From Isoetes taiwanensis (taxonomy: Eukaryota > Streptophyta > Lycopodiopsida > Isoetales > Isoetaceae): a DNA stretch of 64,000 nucleotides. Both the position numbers and the translations under genes were made by a program. The notes beneath the pieces were generated by a model that saw nothing but the letters and a program-made list of their open reading frames with translations, was not told where the DNA came from and ran no database searches. Location of the stretch: assembly GCA_021234155.1 (NCBI GenBank), contig JAJEKV010000413.1, positions 62,001 through 126,000 of the forward strand, given 5' to 3'. Position 1 is the first letter of the stretch. Each line of letters begins with the position of its first letter. Positions 2,400 through 62,100 of the stretch are shown here, piece after piece.

Positions 2400-4000
2400 A
2401 TAGGAGGTTTTCACCGGCATTTCAATACAAGATCTCCTTCCATTGCCGCCCATTTGAATCTTGGTTTTGCTCGTAAAAGAGTCCGATATTTCTTTTTATC
2501 TTCGTCGGCATCCCTCATTACTGTTAGCGGCATTGGAGGCAATGGTGTTGACTTAGGAGCCTTGCCGGGTGTGGGGATAGGTGAAGCTCCAACTCACGGT
2601 TTGCAATGTGCAGTGTTACACCTAACATCACCCTGCTAATGCACATATGACTAATAAAAAAATCGATGTTCTTTCACCCTTCGTTTGCTCTCCCATCCCA
2701 TTTCTTCATAGGAACCTAAAGATAGGTAGCCTCAATTCTGAATTTGCTTCAATCGCACAAGCAATTTGGCAAATTCAATCGAAAGCATGATAATAACCAA
2801 GTGATAAACTTTGGCAATCGTCATGGTAGCTATCCTTGTAAATAGATACGTGTATTTCTTGCAATCCCATACCTTGTTCATCCCTCTGATGTCAATAAAT
2901 ATCAATGTCGAGATTCTCGATAATTTGGGAGGAAGTAGGGGATGCCATCCTTTGTCTTTGCTATGACAATATTTTTTCTTTTCCTTTCTTTTTCTAGCCT
3001 CTTTCGGCTTTAGAATATTCCCTGATTGGCTCCGGTAAAGGCTACGGTAGGTTACCTAGTGTATGATCCTTGTTATAGTTAGCCTTCCGCGTTACTAGAC
3101 GGCAGATCCGATATATCCAATATTCTTCGCTCACAAATCGGGAAAAGCCTCGAAGCAATTCCTCAAACTTATCGGAAATCCTTTTGCAGTAAATTTGTGG
3201 CATAAGAAAAAATTTAACCAACATTCATTTATTTTAAGAATATGTCGTAATTTTGGGAGTTTTTTTCAACGCAACTTTTTCCCTCTCCGTCACTTTTTAC
3301 GCGTTTTTTCCTTCCCACGCAATTTAAAATATCCCGTCTGTTTTTCTTTCCCTCTTCTTTTTCCCACTTTTTTGCTTTCTTCGCTACTTTTAGAAATATT
3401 TTTCTTGCGGGTCGAGCTTTCTTTTCGTCTGGATGCATGCCGCAAATAGCCGACCCCTATGGCTTAAAATTTTTTTTTTTATATTTTCTAAGATTGCTAG
3501 ATAAAAGCTCTTCCTCCAAAGAATCTTCGGACGTGGAGAAGAAGGCGTGGATGAAAAGCTCTTCCCTCCAAAACTTTCCCAGAAGAAGAAGACGGATTCT
3601 CCTTCCCTCCCGTCCTGGCCTTCTTGGTTTCTATTCCACATGCAAAATGGGAATCTTTCGGATGGTTTCAATTGTGGTTTCTATTTCACATAATCGGCTC
3701 GTGATGCATTCTTACTCCCAAATATACGCCCTTTTCCAAGAAAAATTCTCTGCGGTTTGCCCTCCACCTTTGATTTTTGTACTGTAGACTATAAATGTTG
3801 TTTGGTATGGGGATTATTTCAATAGGTTCCCCCTATTCTTCAGTTGTTGCTTGCAAATGTAGAATATGGCCGATTTTCTTATTTACTTTTTCCTCAATCG
3901 CGTTTGATCCAGTGTGGTTTTGGAGTCGGTACCTCTTGCACTAGTCATATAACTGCGGGAGTGATGGCATGCCAGTTCTAGAAATTGTGAAGGCAGAACC
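2400..4000. other. Intergenic, nothing recognised
   Basis: T-rich on the plus strand from about 3200 to 3480, which makes several overlapping low-complexity reading frames. No motif or boundary was found. Confidence 0.5.
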
Positions 4001-53609: not shown

Positions 53610-56600
53610 TGAAGATTCTTTCCCGGAATCTTAGAGGCATAAAGGTCCTTTTTGAAAAGAAGAAGGGCTATTGCTCAAATCGGGATGTATAATGCTCGAT
53701 ATAATCCTTCTTCAAGAGCTTAAACTTCCCTCTTTTGAATGTAGCAATTTGGGGATTGGATATACCCTTCTTCTTCTTCAACTGGATTAACTCTTCCGGG
53801 GCTAGTGGTGGTTTAGCCATTGTTTGGAAAAAAGACATCAAGCATTCCTCCTTCTACAATAGCCCTTCCAAAACTTGGGGCTATGATTTGCTTTCTGTTT
53901 TAATTCCAACTTTGGAATCATCAATATATATGCCCCTACCTCTCCAAAAGATAGGGAACCTACATGGAGTGAAATTAATAGTTGGTTGGGATCTCAAACT
54001 ATAGATAACTGGATTGTTCTTTTGGAGACTTCAATAATACCCTTCTTGGGATTTTAAGTTGGGAAATAAAATAAATATGTCCTCAACAAAAGCGTAACTG
54101 ATCTGCTTATCTCGATAACAATCTCATTCATATTCCCTCTTCCTGACCACCTACACTTGGTCTAATAAGCAAAAAAGATAGAGCAAGGGTTTATTGCACT
54201 CTTGATGATTTTATGTTTCCAATCCATCTACATAGCCTTCGGGGACAATAGTTATGTAACAAGTGATGAAGGAACCTCTATTTTCGACCATCAGCCTCAA
54301 TTCCTTCATACCTCCCATGCTATTAAGATTCAAAGAGAAGGAGCACTCCTTATAAATTTAATTCTTCTCTTCTCGAGAATGAAAATTTCTCGGCCCCAAT
54401 TGAGAACTTTCTATGATGAGCTGACTAATAGATTTGCCGGGCAACTCTATGCCTCCTATGAAGCTTTTCTACTCTAAAATCAAGGAAGTCAAAAGATGGA
54501 TTAAGAATCGGTCTAAGCTTATCAAAGATAAAGCAAAGAAAAAAAAAACCAGACTTCTCATGTATATGAAGGAAATTAGATCTTTACTTCAAAATGATCC
54601 TTCCAGCTCTAACCTTCAAGTAGGGGAAGAAATTCTTGAAAGAAAAATCAAAAGTATTGAGGAGATTGAAGCTAAAGGCTCTGCAATTAGATGCAAGATC
54701 AAATATACTAATGATATGGACTCGCTCCTCGTGTTTTTCTTCGAGGGTAGCCAAAAGTAGAGTTCTTAGAAACTCCATTACTGAGACTATTGATGATCAG
54801 GATATTAAATATAATTCTCATTCTGACATTGCAAATTTCTTCAAGAGTAGATACATGGACCTTTTTAAAGACAAACCAATTCCTCCCAATGAGATCTCGG
54901 ATGCAAATGACTTTTATTCCTTAGTCAATAATATTTTTACTCGATCCTCCGGAATCCATGGACGAAGTCTCCGGGTTGCCATTCCTTCTCTTAATGAGAT
55001 TTATGACACTCTCAAGTCCTTTAGTAATGGAAAATCTCCTCGGCCCCGATGGTTTCCCAAAGAGAATTTTATATCAAAATTCGGGACATTCTCTAAAATG
55101 ACCTGATCTCTCTGATTCTAGCCTTACGGAATTCTAATCATCTTCATCCCTCTATTTCCAGTGGCCTGATCACTTTGGTTCCTAAGGTTGATCACCCTTC
55201 AAAGTTTCAAGACTGGAGACCAATCTCTCTCACAAACACTACATATAAACTTTGTGCCAAGATCATTGCTCTCAGGATCAAAAACTTTCTTCAAAGAAAT
55301 ATTAGCCCAACTCAATCTGCTTTTCTTCCAAATAGATTCATTCTGGATAACTATGTGGCTGCTATGGAGGGTCTGCACTGGAATAAAATTTCAAATCAAA
55401 ATTGCATTCTCCTTAAATTAGATTTCAAGAGAGCATTTGATTCTGTTAGGTGGGATTTCTTAGATTTTGCAATGTCCAAAATTGGTTTCCATCCCAAGAT
55501 TATTAGTCTTATTCATGGTCTGAATGCTAGATCGAACTCAGCTATTCTTATCAATGGTGTCCCCACTGGTTTCTTCCCTCTTTCTTGTGGAGTGAGGCAA
55601 GGATGTCCTCTTGCTCCCTATTTATTCTTAGTGGCTGCTGAGCTCCTAACTAAGGTTGTTATGCATTATCAGAATTCAGCTCAATTAAAAGGCTTAAATC
55701 TACCAAATTCCAATGATAGTATCACCATTCTCCAATATGCTGATGACACCTTCTCCTTTCTTGATGCTGATCTTCAAAACATCAATCTCTTCCTCAAAAT
55801 TTTAGGTCAATTCTCTCACGCGATCCGGTATCCATTTGAACTTGAACAAAAGTTTGATTATTGGAGATGTCAATACTCCAACTTTTATTTTGGGATAAAT
55901 GTTCTCCTCCAATCAGCAACCAAGCTTCTAGGTATGCCTCTTGCTATGGATCATACTATCAAAGGCCTTTTGGGACCCTATCCTCCCGAGAATCAAAAAA
56001 GAAACCGAACAATTACAGAACTATCTTTCTCTTTGCAAAAGTGAGAACTATTATTGCTAATAATCGTTCTTGCTAGCTCTCATGTATACTTCTCAACAAA
56101 CCTTGGTGGCTCCAAAATGTGTCTATCCGAGCTTGAGAAAATTCTCGTGAACTTTATTTGGAAAGGTAGTCATTTGGTCAATCGGAATTCTATCCGTAAG
56201 TTTTAAATCTTCCGGTGGTTTAGGATGCAAAAATCTTTTCGACAAGCACAAGCTCTTCCGGGAAGTTTATATGGAAATCAATACATGGGAATCCTTCTCC
56301 TACCAGAATTAATCGATATTGGATTACCCCGAAGTCATCCTCATGGTCACCCCTCTATTCAAAGACTTGCTCCCTCATTCGCCTTCAATGGCTTGAGACC
56401 GCCACTAATATTTCACCTCTTATGTGTAATCTTATCAAAGCTTGGAATGCTATCTCTCCTAACTTCCATTTTATTGCTAGGGAAAAGCTTCATGCGATAT
56501 CTTGCCAATCTTCTCGAATCCAATTTTAGTTGAGCAAAATTCTCCTGTTCTTGCCATCAAGCATCCTAGAATTTATAAGAAGTGGTCCGAGGCTGGTTTC

Positions 56601-57290
56601 CTTTACCTTAAGGACTTGATTATTGATGGGAGAGTTATCTCTTGGACTAGATCAAGGGTATGATTGGAGGTACATCATCCGATAAAAAATCTATGCTCTT
56701 ATTAAACCCTTTCTCACAATTTATCCCCCAATCGATAAACCCGATTGGACTATAAAGGAAAAGGAGTCTACAAAGTGAAGGATGTATATAATGCTATGTC
56801 CTCTAACATGGATAATTGCAAAGCTATGCTAAAATGGTCTATTTCTTATGATAAAACTTTAAGAGTCTGCATTCCATAATATTTGGAATTCTTATTGTCC
56901 TCCAAAAAATTTCCTATTTTATCTCGGTTACTTGCTAATGGCGGTCCTGAATAATGGGTCTCGTTTCCAAAAAGAAATCCTAACATCTCAAACAAATTGC
57001 CCCTTAAATTGTAATAATCTTGAGGACTGTTCTCATATTTTCTTCAACGTAAGTTAGATGATTTTTGGAACCGGATTGTCGCTAGATTTGGTATTGGGAA
57101 TAATGGAGATCTTCTCTCCCTTATTCAACATAATGATATGTTTACAAATTCAATCATTTACATAGCTTTATGGAATATTTGGAAAGCAAGAAATCGCGGT
57201 GTTATATGGTCATAAGAATCCTTCTATCTTTTTGGATTAAGATGCATTTTCAGTTTGACTTTGAGACTATTGCAACTCGCTCACAAAAAG
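53610..57290 (+). pseudogene. LINE 2 ORF2: endonuclease, reverse transcriptase, zinc-binding domain
   Basis: The start MKILSRNLRGIK at 53610 matches the N-terminus of plant L1 endonucleases (MKILSWNxRG). FGDFNNT follows near 54025. Reverse transcriptase motifs: ITLVPKVDHPSKFQDWRPIS (55165-55225), PTQSAFLPNRFILDN, motif A LKLDFKRAFDSVRWDF, motif B GVRQGCPLAPYLFLVAAELL, and the catalytic YADD near 55740. A zf-RVT-like part follows at 56870-57060 (NIWNSYCPPKNFLFYLGYLL, CNNLEDCSHIF), then ALWNIWKARN near 57165. At least eight frameshifts or stops break the protein. No RNase H domain was seen after the zinc-binding part. Confidence 0.85.
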
Positions 57291-58249
57291 AAATTTGGTA
57301 CTAACTTTGGACAGAAATGGGAGATCTTTGGGCAGTTTAGGGGACACTACAGTTTATTTGCTTCAAATCTTCATGTTGTGGATTCTAACTTGTTTCTCTC
57401 TGATGATCCTAGAGTATCTTGAATTCCTGCGTGGAGAGGGGAGAAATAAATTCGACAGCAGCCAGTCCCCTTTCAGTCAGACTTCAACTGACCACATTAT
57501 GAAGAATGACATTGCCTCCTCTATGGAATCTTTTCTCATGAAAAAAGGACATAGGAGACACCTGAAAGAAAGTGAAGATTTGTGGGCAAGCATTTTTTGC
57601 AGAGAGGTTGTGCAACTCCATTGCCTTTGGATGTTTACGTCAATCAACAATTTCCTTCTTAATGAGACTCAGGTGACTAGGTACAGAACCATGTACTATA
57701 ACCACAAATTGTTGGCCGACCTCTATGGCTCTCTTCTTTTTGCTTTTTGGAAGGAAGAGACATGTTCCGCTTCTATGCTACCATAATAATTGGGCTCCCA
57801 ATCATTATCTTTTTTGGGACTACGATGGATTCAATGCATACTTCAATTACGTTTTCTCATCCCGGCACTGATATATCCTTCTTTGTTGGCCCATCCTCCA
57901 GAAACACACTTTTGCTCTTATTTGATTTAGTGTCGGCTTACCTTTTGGTGGATTCAATTTTGGCGGTGTTATCGGGTTCTCTCTCAAGGTTCTCAAATTC
58001 TACATGGCACTGTAGAAGTTACAAAATTTTTCTATTCTCCAAGAACGGGAATACCATCGGATCTTCTTAAGTGTAGCTGCTCATTACTCTGACTCGTCCG
58101 TTTCACTGGATACAAACTCTTTTAAGTGTCCTGTTATTACTGTTATTGGCTGATTCTGATACACTTATTGGTATGCTTATTTTAAGAGCATGCTATTACA
58201 TTGTATCTCTGAGATTTTATAATTAATGACAAAACCAACTCTTACTTTC
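57291..58249 (+). other. LINE 2 3' region
   Basis: Contains two mid-length open frames (57295-57786 and 57747-58070) of unrecognised type, then the 3' untranslated part leading into poly(A). Confidence 0.5.
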
Positions 58250-58270
58250 AAAAAAAAAAAAAAAAAAAAA

Positions 58271-58284
58271 AACTATACAAAACT
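58271..58284. repeat. Target site duplication, right copy (LINE 2)
   Basis: AACTATACAAAACT directly after the poly(A) run. Confidence 0.9.
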
Positions 58285-58484: not shown

Positions 58485-59133
58485 CTTGAAAAAAATGAAA
58501 AATTGTTTATGAGAATGACATTTCTGTATATAAAAAGTAATGTATGATAATACCTCAGTAAGGAAAGCCTTGTTATAAGAAAAGACTCGTTATGCCAACG
58601 AAAACTAGGCTAATGTTTAGATTACAGAGTCATCAACAAATAAAAAAAGCCTTGAGAGAAACAGTCACTATCATGATCGCTGTTGTTGTTCTTGAGAAGA
58701 AGGAAGCGCAGTGTAGCATCCAACGAAAGAAAAGCAAAGAAAAGGGAATGCATGTGCTTACTTTTTAAAAGTTATCCACGTGGCTATTTATTTTAGGTAC
58801 GGGACATTAAAAAATAAGAATAAGAATAAGAATAGTTTTAAAACAGGAACAAGGCGGGAAGGCGGGCATTTAAAACATCAAACGTACGCCTATTAAAAAT
58901 TCAAAAGATATACCTATTAAAAAAGGCCACGTGTTACAGTTCAAAAATTTGTTAGCCTTTTTGCGTGGCAATTAATACAGCGAAGAGCAAGAAGAAAAAT
59001 TGCCAAGAACAAGAAGAAAATTGACACGGCCACACATTCTTCTAAATTCTTGATTCTAGATTTCCACTGATTCTGCTTCTTGAATTTACAAGCATCTTGA
59101 AGCTAGTTCTTGCACCTGCAATCTGTATACAGG
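58485..59133. other. Intergenic, nothing recognised
   Basis: AT-rich. No gene or repeat boundary was found. Confidence 0.5.
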
Positions 59134-59231
59134 AATGACTTTTTTGTCGACATTCCAGCGTAGAAACGCTGCCGACGCGCGTTAGCGCGGAGGCGGCGTT
59201 GACACGCCGGAATGTCGACAAAAAAGTCATT
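59134..59231. repeat. 98-bp DNA cloverleaf: 23-bp perfect stem enclosing three hairpins
   Basis: The left arm 59134-59156 (AATGACTTTTTTGTCGACAT plus TCC) is the exact reverse complement of the right arm 59209-59231. The 52 bases between are divided without any leftover base into three hairpins with 4-nt loops: AGCGT-AGAA-ACGCT (59157-59170); GCC...GCGC-GTTA-GCGC...GGC (59171-59194, two mismatches in the stem); GGCGT-TGAC-ACGCC (59195-59208). The result is a perfect four-way junction. The inner part is very GC- and CpG-rich in an AT-rich neighbourhood. Its function is unknown. Confidence 0.95.
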
Positions 59232-59242
59232 AGTGTAACGTG

Positions 59243-60349
59243 AAGTTAACCTAGGGTTTCATTCTGTCATTTTTTTTTCCTTTCTTCCTGCGCCATCGCC
59301 ATCGTTTCTTTAGGGCGATCCACAGGTGTTTCGCGGTGGCGCCATGTTGAAGCTTCATTCCGGTGGCGCCATCTAGGTTTGAGAGTTGAGTAGGCGAGTT
59401 TTTGGAAGCTTTTGACGAAGTTGTGAAGCTTCTTGGTTTGCTTTCGTGTATTTTCTTTGTCTTTTTCCTTCGGTGGCGTCATCTTGCTCTGAGCGTTCGT
59501 TAGGCGAAACTTTTGAAGGTTTTGAAGAAATTTCTTGGTGCCTTTGGTCTGCTTTGTCTGTGTTCTTACTTGCATGGCTATTTCTTGCTATTTCTTGCGT
59601 GCTGGAGGATGTAGGACGACTCTAAAGAGAACTAGGATGGCCTTTTTGCAAGAAATTCTTGCATGCAGGTTCTCTTGTCGAAGTTTTGTGCTTCTGAGTT
59701 TGTTTCAAGTTCTGATTTATTTGTTTCAAGTCTAGGACGAGTTTCAGACTTGGATTCTAGCTTTTTGTATGATCCGGGCAGTTTGTTCAAGGATTCTGTA
59801 AAAAAGGCTGTAAAAAAGGCAAGGATCTTTGTTGTTTTTTGTTATTCTTCTTTTATTTTTCGCTTCTTGTTACTAACTTGGATTTTCTTTTGTAGATATG
59901 TGTGATGGATGATCTTGAGGAACCTATTCTTAGGGATATCACAAATAAGGGAGCTGCAGACAGAGAAGCTTGCTAGTCTGACAGAGAAGCTTGCTAGTCT
60001 TTGGCGCTGCTAGTTCTCCTTGAAGTTCTGCTGGAAGTTCTCTTTGATTTTTTGATGTGTTTGCTGGAATTGATACTTGGAAGTATCACATTTTGAACTG
60101 TAATGTGTTTTTTGAATTGATACTTGAAGTATCATCATATTTTGAATTGTATACAGGACATGCTTCTTAAATGAATGCAAGAAATTTTGAGTCTCGAAAT
60201 TTACTGTTGGAAATTTTCAGAATTGTAACTAAGTAAAAAGAAGAAATGCAAGTAAAAAACAGAATTGCAACCAAGTAACTACATTTCTGGAAAAGAAAAT
60301 CATAGCAGAATAAGGGGTAAAATGGACAGAATGAACCCTAGGTTAACTT
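59243..60349. mobile_element. 1.1-kb element with terminal inverted repeats
   Basis: AAGTTAACCTAGGGTTTCAT plus TCTGTCATTTT at the left end (59243 onward) is mirrored, with two single-base indels, at the right end (to 60349). The interior has diverged tandem duplications (GGTGGCGxCATCT blocks at about 59363 and 59473; GACAGAGAAGCTTGCTAGTC twice at 59958-60000) and no transposase, so it is MITE-like or non-autonomous. A target duplication is not obvious. The cloverleaf stands 11 bp outside the left end. Confidence 0.6.
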
Positions 60350-62100
60350 TAGGTGAAAAGGTAACAAAATGTAGCTAGCAATTGAAGCATCACAGATGAA
60401 TCTGATTTTTTTTATCTCTTTGGGGCCGATCTGAAATTCAAACTAGCCTTCTTATTACTAACTCAAATCCGACCCAGTTTGCCTTCAGATCCCGTCAAGT
60501 TTAAGCAACAGAGGTTAAATTGAACAGATTGAAACGACATGATTCAAAATACTATAACTTACCCTGCCACTCTCTGCGCAATCACCTCTTCCATCATCGA
60601 CTGCCATCTATCTGCCTGCTAAATCCTTCCTTCTGCTTCGTCTTCAAAGAGAGATTTACATAGCTTTGCATAAACGGATTTCCCTGATAAATCCCTACCT
60701 CTGGCATTTTTTTTCCAAGTATCCCACAGCTAAGTATCACATTTTTTTTCCAAGTATCCCACAGGTAATTTGAGATCTCATTTTGTCCCATTAAGGGATG
60801 CTTAAAAAGCCACGTCAGCTTTTTAAACTGTCCAATAAGAGAAGAGCTCCAGTGTATTTTATTCCAGTATTATGTGGCAGCAGTAATTAATGCAGTTCTA
60901 ACTAACTTTTGCAGTGTCATTTTTCTACGATAACTTTTGATCAAAAACTCCGATTTGAACACTATTTGTGGCAATGGATTCGTCTCCTCAAGATCTTTCT
61001 AATGACAACCCATTGTTATGTCTTTTGGGATGTAAATATATAAGAAAAGAGCAAAAAACCATATTTTTTAAGGTTAACACATATAGCTTGTATTGAAATA
61101 CATCATAACCATATATCATTTGAAAGATCTTTTCATTCTCAAGATCTAATGCAACAAACGCCACAAACATTTTCATGAGTAGATCAAAAGTTATAGGAAA
61201 AAACGACAAAGAATGAAGTTGTTAATGCTGCATTAATTGCAGTTTGATATAGAGTACTCATTCTATTGGAGGATTCTTATGGGGACAAAAGGAGATCTCA
61301 AATTACCTCTAATGGAGTATGCCAGCGAGTTAGATCGGTAAAAACGGATTCAAAGATGCATACCACAAAGAAAATCTAATCTCTCCCGCGACTCCGGGAA
61401 GAAGTAAAAGCATTTCGGGCATACAGATCTCCGCCCAATTGTAAATCGTGGAGGCCATATATGGTCGCGTTATTGCTAGTTATGGCCTGTTGCTAGTTGT
61501 TGCCTGTTGTGCCGGATCTGGATGCCAGCAGATCAGGAAGAAATGGATATATGTTACAAGATCCGGATCTGCTGGTAGAAGCTAAATGAGGCAAAGAAAA
61601 AATTTTCCTCATGGATTCGTGCACATGGCAGCATCGTCCACCTTCAAGCCGGTGGCTACTAAGCAGTGACAGAATAAAAACGCAGGGACATTGGTTGTGA
61701 GACGCCATGGCTGCTGGAGGAGAAGGAGATCCAGGAGCACACGACTACTTGCCCTAACCCTAAACGAATTTTGCCTACTTGCCCTAAGCGAATTTTGCCT
61801 CTTTGCCTCTGCCCCAACCCTGAACCCAATTCTTCATATCCAACGGTTGCCTTTGCATCTGCCCTAACCCTAAAGGTGTCTATGCAGGAAATCGGGCAGG
61901 GGGGTTAGGCAACCCTGCTAAAAAAAAGGGTTTTGGCCCATTCCTAGCTATGCCACGTGTCGTGCCACCTCAGCAAGTTTCAAGATAAGCCGTTAGATCT
62001 ATAATTTTTCACATCTACGGTCCAGAAAAATAGAAAACTTGAAGATTATTCGACCTTCTGCGAGACAAAATTCCCTCCTCTGTAACTCCGTTCTCCTTCC
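60350..62100. other. Intergenic with short tandem repeats
   Basis: TTTTTTTTCCAAGTATCCCA with CAGxTAA occurs twice at 60708-60768. GAATTTTGCCT and CCCTAA repeats lie around 61740-61880. The CCGTTAGATCT...ATCTACGGTCC inverted pattern near 61990-62020 resembles motifs in the 5' blocks of the Helitron-like units. No gene was recognised. Confidence 0.5.

Follow-up and report, generated by a model that had tools for sequence, protein, structure and literature searches.

A 98-bp hairpin in Isoetes taiwanensis as the probable left end of a Crypton-like tyrosine recombinase DNA transposon

The window, a stretch of 64,000 nucleotides of the Isoetes taiwanensis genome, carries at positions 59134-59231 a 98-bp palindromic structure, which the original prediction had delimited as complete within these bounds. 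Comparison of copies placed it instead at one end of an element of 1230 bp (59125-60354). Towards the right, conservation spans GTAACGTGAAGTT and the adjacent 1.1-kb inverted-repeat element and ends in ...CCTAGGTTAACTTTACGT. Since it continues through both, hairpin and neighbour are a single element, and the suspicion that their adjacency is meaningful was well founded. The features of the element, in window coordinates, are as follows.

59121-59126, + strand: left target or crossover motif ATCTGT (consensus TTHYGT), from 36 left ends and the empty sites of one insertion.
59125-59133, + strand: left terminus GTATACAGG; the flanks outside it are unique in the copies examined, and its pattern has 36 matches.
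59134-59231, + strand: left end hairpin of 98 bp, from pairing seen in the sequence, DNA folding and copy alignment.
59238-59268, + strand: inverted internal copy of the right terminus (ACGTGAAGTTAACCTAGGGTTTCATTCTGTC), from repeat comparison and pattern search.
59905-59967, + strand: remnant of the start of recombinase exon 1 (MDDLEEPILRDITN...), from tblastn with the L080 protein (71% over 21 residues) and the L081 alignment.
59983-59999, no strand: internal deletion junction, where L081 859-2716 (most of the gene) is missing, from the L081 alignment.
60000-60354, + strand: 3' end of the gene and right end region, 97% to L081 2717-3077.
60325-60354, - strand: right terminal repeat (...CCTAGGTTAACTTTAGGT; CTTTACGT in L002-L006), from copy comparison.

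The 98-mer was compared with its own genome (1.66 Gb, 1110 contigs), giving at least 59 match rows from 40 scored of 116 candidates. A single-copy oddity, the outcome that the original prediction had set against itself, was ruled out by these genome-wide matches. Thirty-nine other hairpin places, some of them partial, were examined with 400 bp on either side. In most of them the left flank was unique up to a Y directly followed by GTATACAGG, GTATACGGG or GTATAGGGG; a few copies, such as L015, L019, L028 and L032, had a damaged left end. The left-end pattern gave 36 matches in the genome and 0 in the reversed control, and the inverted-repeat pattern 76 matches and 0 when read backwards. The inverted repeats are about 30 bp long and the inner one lies about 113 bp from the left end, behind the hairpin; where both repeat copies were paired, the terminal one was mostly ACGTAAAG and the internal one mostly ACGTGAAG. 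The structure was thus found to belong to a mobile element, as had been proposed: a multi-copy family with sharp ends that are independent of the flanks. Additionally, a second copy of the element's final 19 bp (TTTTAGGTTAACTTTACGT) directly follows the right end of copy L004, and L031 (C1030:11425828-11426705) and L042 (C1036:14886382-14887235) contain a tandem repeat of flank and part of the hairpin, as if the polymerase had jumped at the hairpin.

The pairing originally described is all in the sequence of the window copy. A perfect stem of 23 bp (59134-59156 with 59209-59231) encloses three hairpins with 4-nt loops, AGCGT-AGAA-ACGCT, GCC-GA-CGCGC-GTTA-GCGCG-GA-GGC and GGCGT-TGAC-ACGCC, packed without gaps and with zero leftover bases inside. 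The 98-mer folded as DNA with -46.3 kcal/mol (z = -12.5) and none of 200 dinucleotide shuffles was equally good, a stability far beyond chance. The proposed four-way cloverleaf is on the other hand not the better fold. With DNA parameters the cloverleaf of the window copy had -44.0 kcal/mol and a linear hairpin -46.2 kcal/mol, a difference of 2.2 in favour of the latter, and the linear fold was better in 10 of the 10 98-nt copies scored for both; in copy L009 the values were -54.6 (linear) and -43.2 kcal/mol (cloverleaf), a gap of about 11 kcal/mol. The fold of the family is a single long hairpin of 29 bp, GA/GA, 9 bp, GA/GA, 5 bp and the loop GTTA. The window copy differs from L009 in two bases, at hairpin positions 24 and 29; these substitutions turn the linear pairs 24:75 and 29:70 into A.C mismatches, and with them the first arm of the cloverleaf becomes fully paired. 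What looks like a cloverleaf in the window copy is an alternative folding of a linear hairpin that has decayed slightly; "cloverleaf" signals met in raw sequence may likewise come from linear hairpins in decay.

The 98-mer is not a tRNA, in agreement with the original prediction: this identity was rejected on a tRNA check, and no Rfam family reached its gathering score. GT/AC closing pairs at the foot of the hairpin were considered and rejected, being present in 0 of 47 minimum-energy folds. The window 98-mer contains 14 CpG and ten scored close copies contain 12-16; this richness, first read as a sign of a young or selected structure, is common to close copies and would fit either recent copying or constraint.

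Conservation of the fold was analysed in an alignment of 24 rows from close subfamilies. L017, L019, L032, L045 and L047 were excluded for a changed length or for an arm taken over by flank, the remaining 19 rows were merged to 14 distinct 98-mers, and copies of other hairpin lengths (such as L018, L020-L022 and L024-L028) were left out. In the linear hairpin, 98.2% of cells are paired and 9 pairs have changes in both partners. Such two-sided changes affect 47 cells, and 0 of 500 shuffles reached this count or the covariation score; the number of two-sided pairs, reached by 128 of 500 shuffles, was not above the control. Slid versions of the linear fold had at most 1 two-sided pair. The cloverleaf, with 96.7% paired cells and 8 two-sided pairs, was rejected as the conserved fold: 6 of the 14 rows lose its inner pairs 24:37 and 62:75, and in these same rows the linear pair 24:75 is preserved by a two-sided change. 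Across 19 distinct rows the loop GTTA never varies and the tandem GA/GA mismatches hardly do; at the AG positions the mismatches persist in 19 of 19 distinct close copies. On its own, this covariation constitutes moderate evidence, since the changes fall on few branches; compensatory changes can also stem from copying of one arm onto the other.

Stronger evidence than this covariation is the recurrence of the GA/GA steps and the tip stem in other subfamilies in which the outer stem differs, namely in L046, L094 and most of L102-L121 (20 loci picked for differing cores from 100 listed cores). Two distant hairpins found via the protein have 114 nt with 2 GA/GA loops (L100) and 115 nt with 1 GA/GA loop (L098); a 16-nt sequence following them recurs inverted downstream of the gene, with 16/16 and 15/16 matching positions, respectively. 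At least one GA/GA loop was present in 24 of 27 hairpins, 20 of which had been picked by a pattern containing part of the motif. The arms of 15 families are slightly more alike than shuffled ones (median 0.50 vs 0.41), so some sequence kinship remains among them. The keeping of the hairpin shape while the sequence changes suggests that the recombinase encoded by longer members of the family reads the shape of the DNA. Arm-to-arm copying was seen in L020, L021, L031 and L089, and in L113 (C1007:9865780-9865990) the tip is apparently inverted relative to the element ends, as if flipped by cruciform resolution or template switching; as these copies show, replication or repair also alters the shape of the palindrome.

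Longer relatives, such as L081, carry a tyrosine recombinase (YR) gene of three exons. L081 (3.0 kb) has the hairpin and the right end without the GTATAC terminus; its gene begins about 0.7 kb inside the hairpin and is directed away from it, and only YR frames were seen, as judged by eye. L080 (8.4 kb) has both ends and the same gene, split by about 5 kb. Both look damaged. The window copy aligns to L081 at 6-858 (93%) and 2717-3077 (97%), and the middle is absent. By this alignment, the window copy is read as a non-autonomous, MITE-like deletion derivative of a coding element, and the earlier statement that the structure fits no MITE was too strong. Having no enzyme, two A.C mismatches in the stem and an altered right terminus, it could be moved only in trans, if at all. 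The 5-kb copy L079 (C1036:5867744-5873159), considered as a coding element, was discarded when no recombinase frame was seen in it; it has both family ends and may carry unrelated host DNA.

The joined L080 protein had DUF3504, the recombinase domain of Cryptons, as its sole Pfam match (E 0.041, 14.4 bits vs a cut-off of 29.7). Of six divergent exon-2 proteins from this genome, three matched Phage_integrase of Pfam (best 5.9e-6, 26.6 bits, just below the cut-off of 27.1), two matched DUF3504 (best 0.014), two matched PHROG integrase families (best 1.7e-8) and one matched XerA of NCBIfam (0.0072); unrelated weak Pfam matches also occurred, such as Zn_ribbon_CSL in two of the six (best 0.012). 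Searches of the PDB and of protein collections with the recombinase found no homolog. Conserved boxes, assigned by eye, were IRGG/IRGQ, KSxR, TG(H/Q) and Y. The histidine of HxxR is K in six of six proteins and the later H is Q in four of six, the four nearer to the family of the window, both also by eye; in L089 the catalytic Y lies outside the coverage. On the basis of these matches and boxes, the gene of the coding members is a predicted tyrosine recombinase. Differences between exon-2 frames concentrate at third codon positions (0.06/0.05/0.27 for L084 vs L086), which indicates that the enzyme was under selection; the excess is weaker between distant exon-2 pairs. Genome searches gave 948 candidates with at least 152 matches among those scored for exon 1, and 2175 candidates with at least 181 matches among those scored for exon 2.

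The association between hairpin and recombinase gene was assessed from both sides. From the protein side, 14 loci were chosen by protein similarity (L084-L095, plus L096 and L097 with the upstream L098 and L100), and a long hairpin was present upstream of the gene in 12 of them. L091 retains a short remnant, and L092 has no hairpin in the 1.5 kb preceding exon 2. YR subfamilies that are about 38-45% identical in protein have the hairpin at the same place, with a different stem and again with GA/GA mismatches. From the hairpin side, a pattern of the hairpin core had 138 matches in the genome and 0 in the reversed control. Distances were counted with 100 listed of the 138 cores and 149 of the 152 exon-1 matches: YR exon 1 lay within 3 kb downstream on the same strand for 10 of the 100 listed cores (0.84-1.57 kb), within 3 kb upstream on the same strand for 0 of 100, and in other arrangements for 2, against 0.05 expected in all. 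Many copies, to judge from the cores without a nearby listed exon 1, may be non-coding.

Certain bases are preferred at the left ends: T at -4 in 30 of 36, T at -3 in 27 of 36 and Y at -1 in 36 of 36, followed by GTATA. Two of the 36 ends are spurious (L062, and L089 on the wrong strand), and without them the values are 28/34, 27/34 and 34/34, respectively. The right end is TTTACGT in L002-L006, TTCACGT in L008 and TTTAGGT in the window copy. From the preferred left bases and the right ends, a target TTHYGT was predicted, with an empty site composed of left flank, GT and right flank. This prediction was fixed before the search, and the joined flanks of L080 were used as query without GT. They matched a repeated host sequence (46 match rows), and six of six paralogous empty sites spanning the junction carry GT there (...ACTTT[TA][CT]GT, then C..). 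GT thus stands at both ends of the filled L080 site and once in its six paralogous empty sites, a result for one insertion only. The short direct repeat shared by the ends is exact for GT and approximate for TTHYGT/TTTACGT. The GT pattern fits a YR crossover at GT, with the element end recombining with a target that resembles it; alternatively, another enzyme may have duplicated 2 bp.

Taken together, the 98-bp structure is read, with a probability of about three in four, as the left terminal hairpin of an element family with coding members that bear a YR gene, most of which the window copy has lost. Of the roles first proposed for the structure, that of a recombinase target is the best supported, and nothing in these analyses pointed to a replication origin. 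The enzyme would join the two ends of the element (as joined ends or as a circle) and would recombine them with a target (TTHYGT) that resembles the right end of the element (TTTACGT). Read by its shape, whether extruded or as a single strand, the hairpin would fix the position of the left strand exchange; it has the left crossover on one side and the internal inverted repeat on the other, and its extrusion would bring this repeat near the crossover, with both ends presenting alike binding arms. For the window copy, the enzyme would have to come from another source. If the hairpin is recognised by shape, this would account for stems that drift while pairing and GA/GA steps persist. The recombinase may need the folded hairpin much as the integron integrase needs attC, by analogy.

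Four other explanations are less likely. A rolling-circle element of Helitron2/HINE type, with the hairpin at its 3' end and the window element on the - strand, would be moved by RepHel and would carry the YR gene as a passenger. Its anatomy fits closely, with one repeat at the terminus and the other just before the hairpin (features in PMC3627910), and the genome is rich in matches to Helitron_like_N (at least 150 matches, 1813 candidates), listed ones lying within 10 kb of 2 of the 100 listed cores where 0.18 were expected. Yet, within 3 kb, such matches (from the at least 150 listed among the 1813 candidates) accompany 0 of the 100 listed cores, against 10 for YR exon 1; only YR frames, and not RepHel, were seen between the repeats of the 3.0-kb L081; the YR was under selection, with the hairpin accompanying it in distant subfamilies; and the inner repeat lies about 113 bp from the end, compared with the 20-30 bp described for Helitron2 in PMC3627910. 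This origin is improbable. In a genome so rich in Helitron_like_N, hairpin elements with asymmetric repeats could be mistaken for Helitrons. An ordinary cut-and-paste MITE, moved by a DDE transposase with a GT target duplication and a captured YR-like gene, would account for inverted repeats of about 30 bp and for GT at both ends of the filled site. Both of its repeats should be terminal, however, and one is set 113 bp in from the end, beyond the hairpin; reading the L081 frames by eye revealed no DDE gene, and the target TTHYGT resembles the right end of the element itself. Such a MITE is very unlikely.

Maintenance of the palindrome by mutation in place of selection, through template switching in replication that copies arm onto arm, has in its favour the arm-to-arm or tandem copying at the hairpin in L020, L021, L031 and L089 and the apparently inverted tip of L113. 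Arm copying would nevertheless erase the GA/GA mismatches, which recur in the distant L100 and L098 and at the AG positions of 19 of 19 close copies, and it leaves unexplained why the hairpin stays at the element end beside a YR gene; we rate it about as low as the Helitron2-type origin. A function of the hairpin as RNA, for example as a small-RNA precursor or a 5' leader, agrees with its stable RNA fold (-72.5 kcal/mol). However, it starts 9 bp from the element end, which would put the transcript start outside the element or in its terminus, and it has no Rfam match; of all these alternatives, this one has the smallest chance.

Following the reading as a terminal hairpin of a YR element, the family probably consists of land-plant YR DNA transposons that are Crypton-like and have a structurally conserved end hairpin. 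It was named Crypton-like and not Crypton, because a strict R-H-R-Y and the absence of inverted repeats do not apply to it. In common with the Cryptons of Kojima and Jurka (2011, PMC3212892), its YR gene is the only recombinase or transposase seen, with no reverse transcriptase seen in L081 by eye; its recombinase has a weak DUF3504-like match; and a short sequence is common to both ends and the target (GT within TTHYGT/TTTACGT). Cryptons are described with direct repeats of 4-6 bp at both termini, where the present family has an exact GT and an approximate TTHYGT/TTTACGT. The family differs in its inverted repeats of about 30 bp and its long end hairpin, in contrast to Cryptons described without terminal inverted repeats (PMC3212892); in the residues R, KxxR and Y in place of the catalytic R-H-R-Y, with K for the HxxR histidine; and in its abundance in a land plant, as the plant host in the excerpted text of PMC3212892 is Chlamydomonas and land plants are not among the hosts named there. 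With Helitron2, Helentron and HINE elements (PMC3627910, PMC5148889, PMC4067079) it shares the asymmetric terminal inverted repeats with a hairpin beside the inner one and the abundance of non-autonomous copies, but its gene is a YR and not RepHel, its hairpin has about 100 nt and its GT is shared with the target.

The integron integrase IntI, also a YR, recombines folded attC hairpins of diverse sequence and about 60-150 nt (PMC11641012). The likeness is that of a YR-associated hairpin conserved in structure more than in sequence; in contrast, tandem GA/GA mismatches take here the place of the spacer and extrahelical bases of attC, and the plant element carries its own YR between its ends. 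The resemblance to attC is an analogy and not membership.

YR transposons are rarely reported in land plants (PMC9033089, PMC7385966): in the portions available, a 2022 review omits DIRS from land plants (PMC9033089), and Cryptons are stated to be undescribed in Arabidopsis (PMC7385966). Two sources count against novelty, a plant review that places Crypton among the class II subclasses as rare in eukaryotes (PMC11630846) and a table of a plant transposable element atlas in which 535 sequences of one data set bear the label Crypton (PMC8729191), by label only. No land-plant YR element with a hairpin end was found in the open-licence PMC literature accessible in part, and a description elsewhere is possible. 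The present data provide one plant genome with many YR element copies, a small non-autonomous form and an end shape conserved over sequence. The genome also has four matches to SAM_LFY (LEAFY), a domain not known outside land plants and their close kin, in keeping with such a host. As a tentative and rather doubtful extension, land plants might carry abundant undescribed YR DNA transposons with a left end that the enzyme recognises by its folded hairpin, a long stem broken by tandem GA/GA mismatches, rather than by sequence. They would be a eukaryotic equivalent of integron integrase and attC, evolved inside a transposon that encodes its own recombinase. Should the fold be the substrate, the family would be a eukaryotic model of structure-specific recombination, and structure-based searches could reveal such elements in other plant genomes.

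The cut-off of DUF3504 was exceeded at two separate loci of the genome only, L082 (C31:90502-90981) and L083 (C606:42685-43182). L083 aligns to the L080 protein across the catalytic boxes. The two loci represent a second, different recombinase family, both broken, in putative plant nuclear DNA. In the neighbourhood of the element, the window contains at 56500-58271 a disrupted stretch that resembles coding sequence and closes with about 22 consecutive A (58250-58271); by eye it looks like a decayed non-LTR retroelement.
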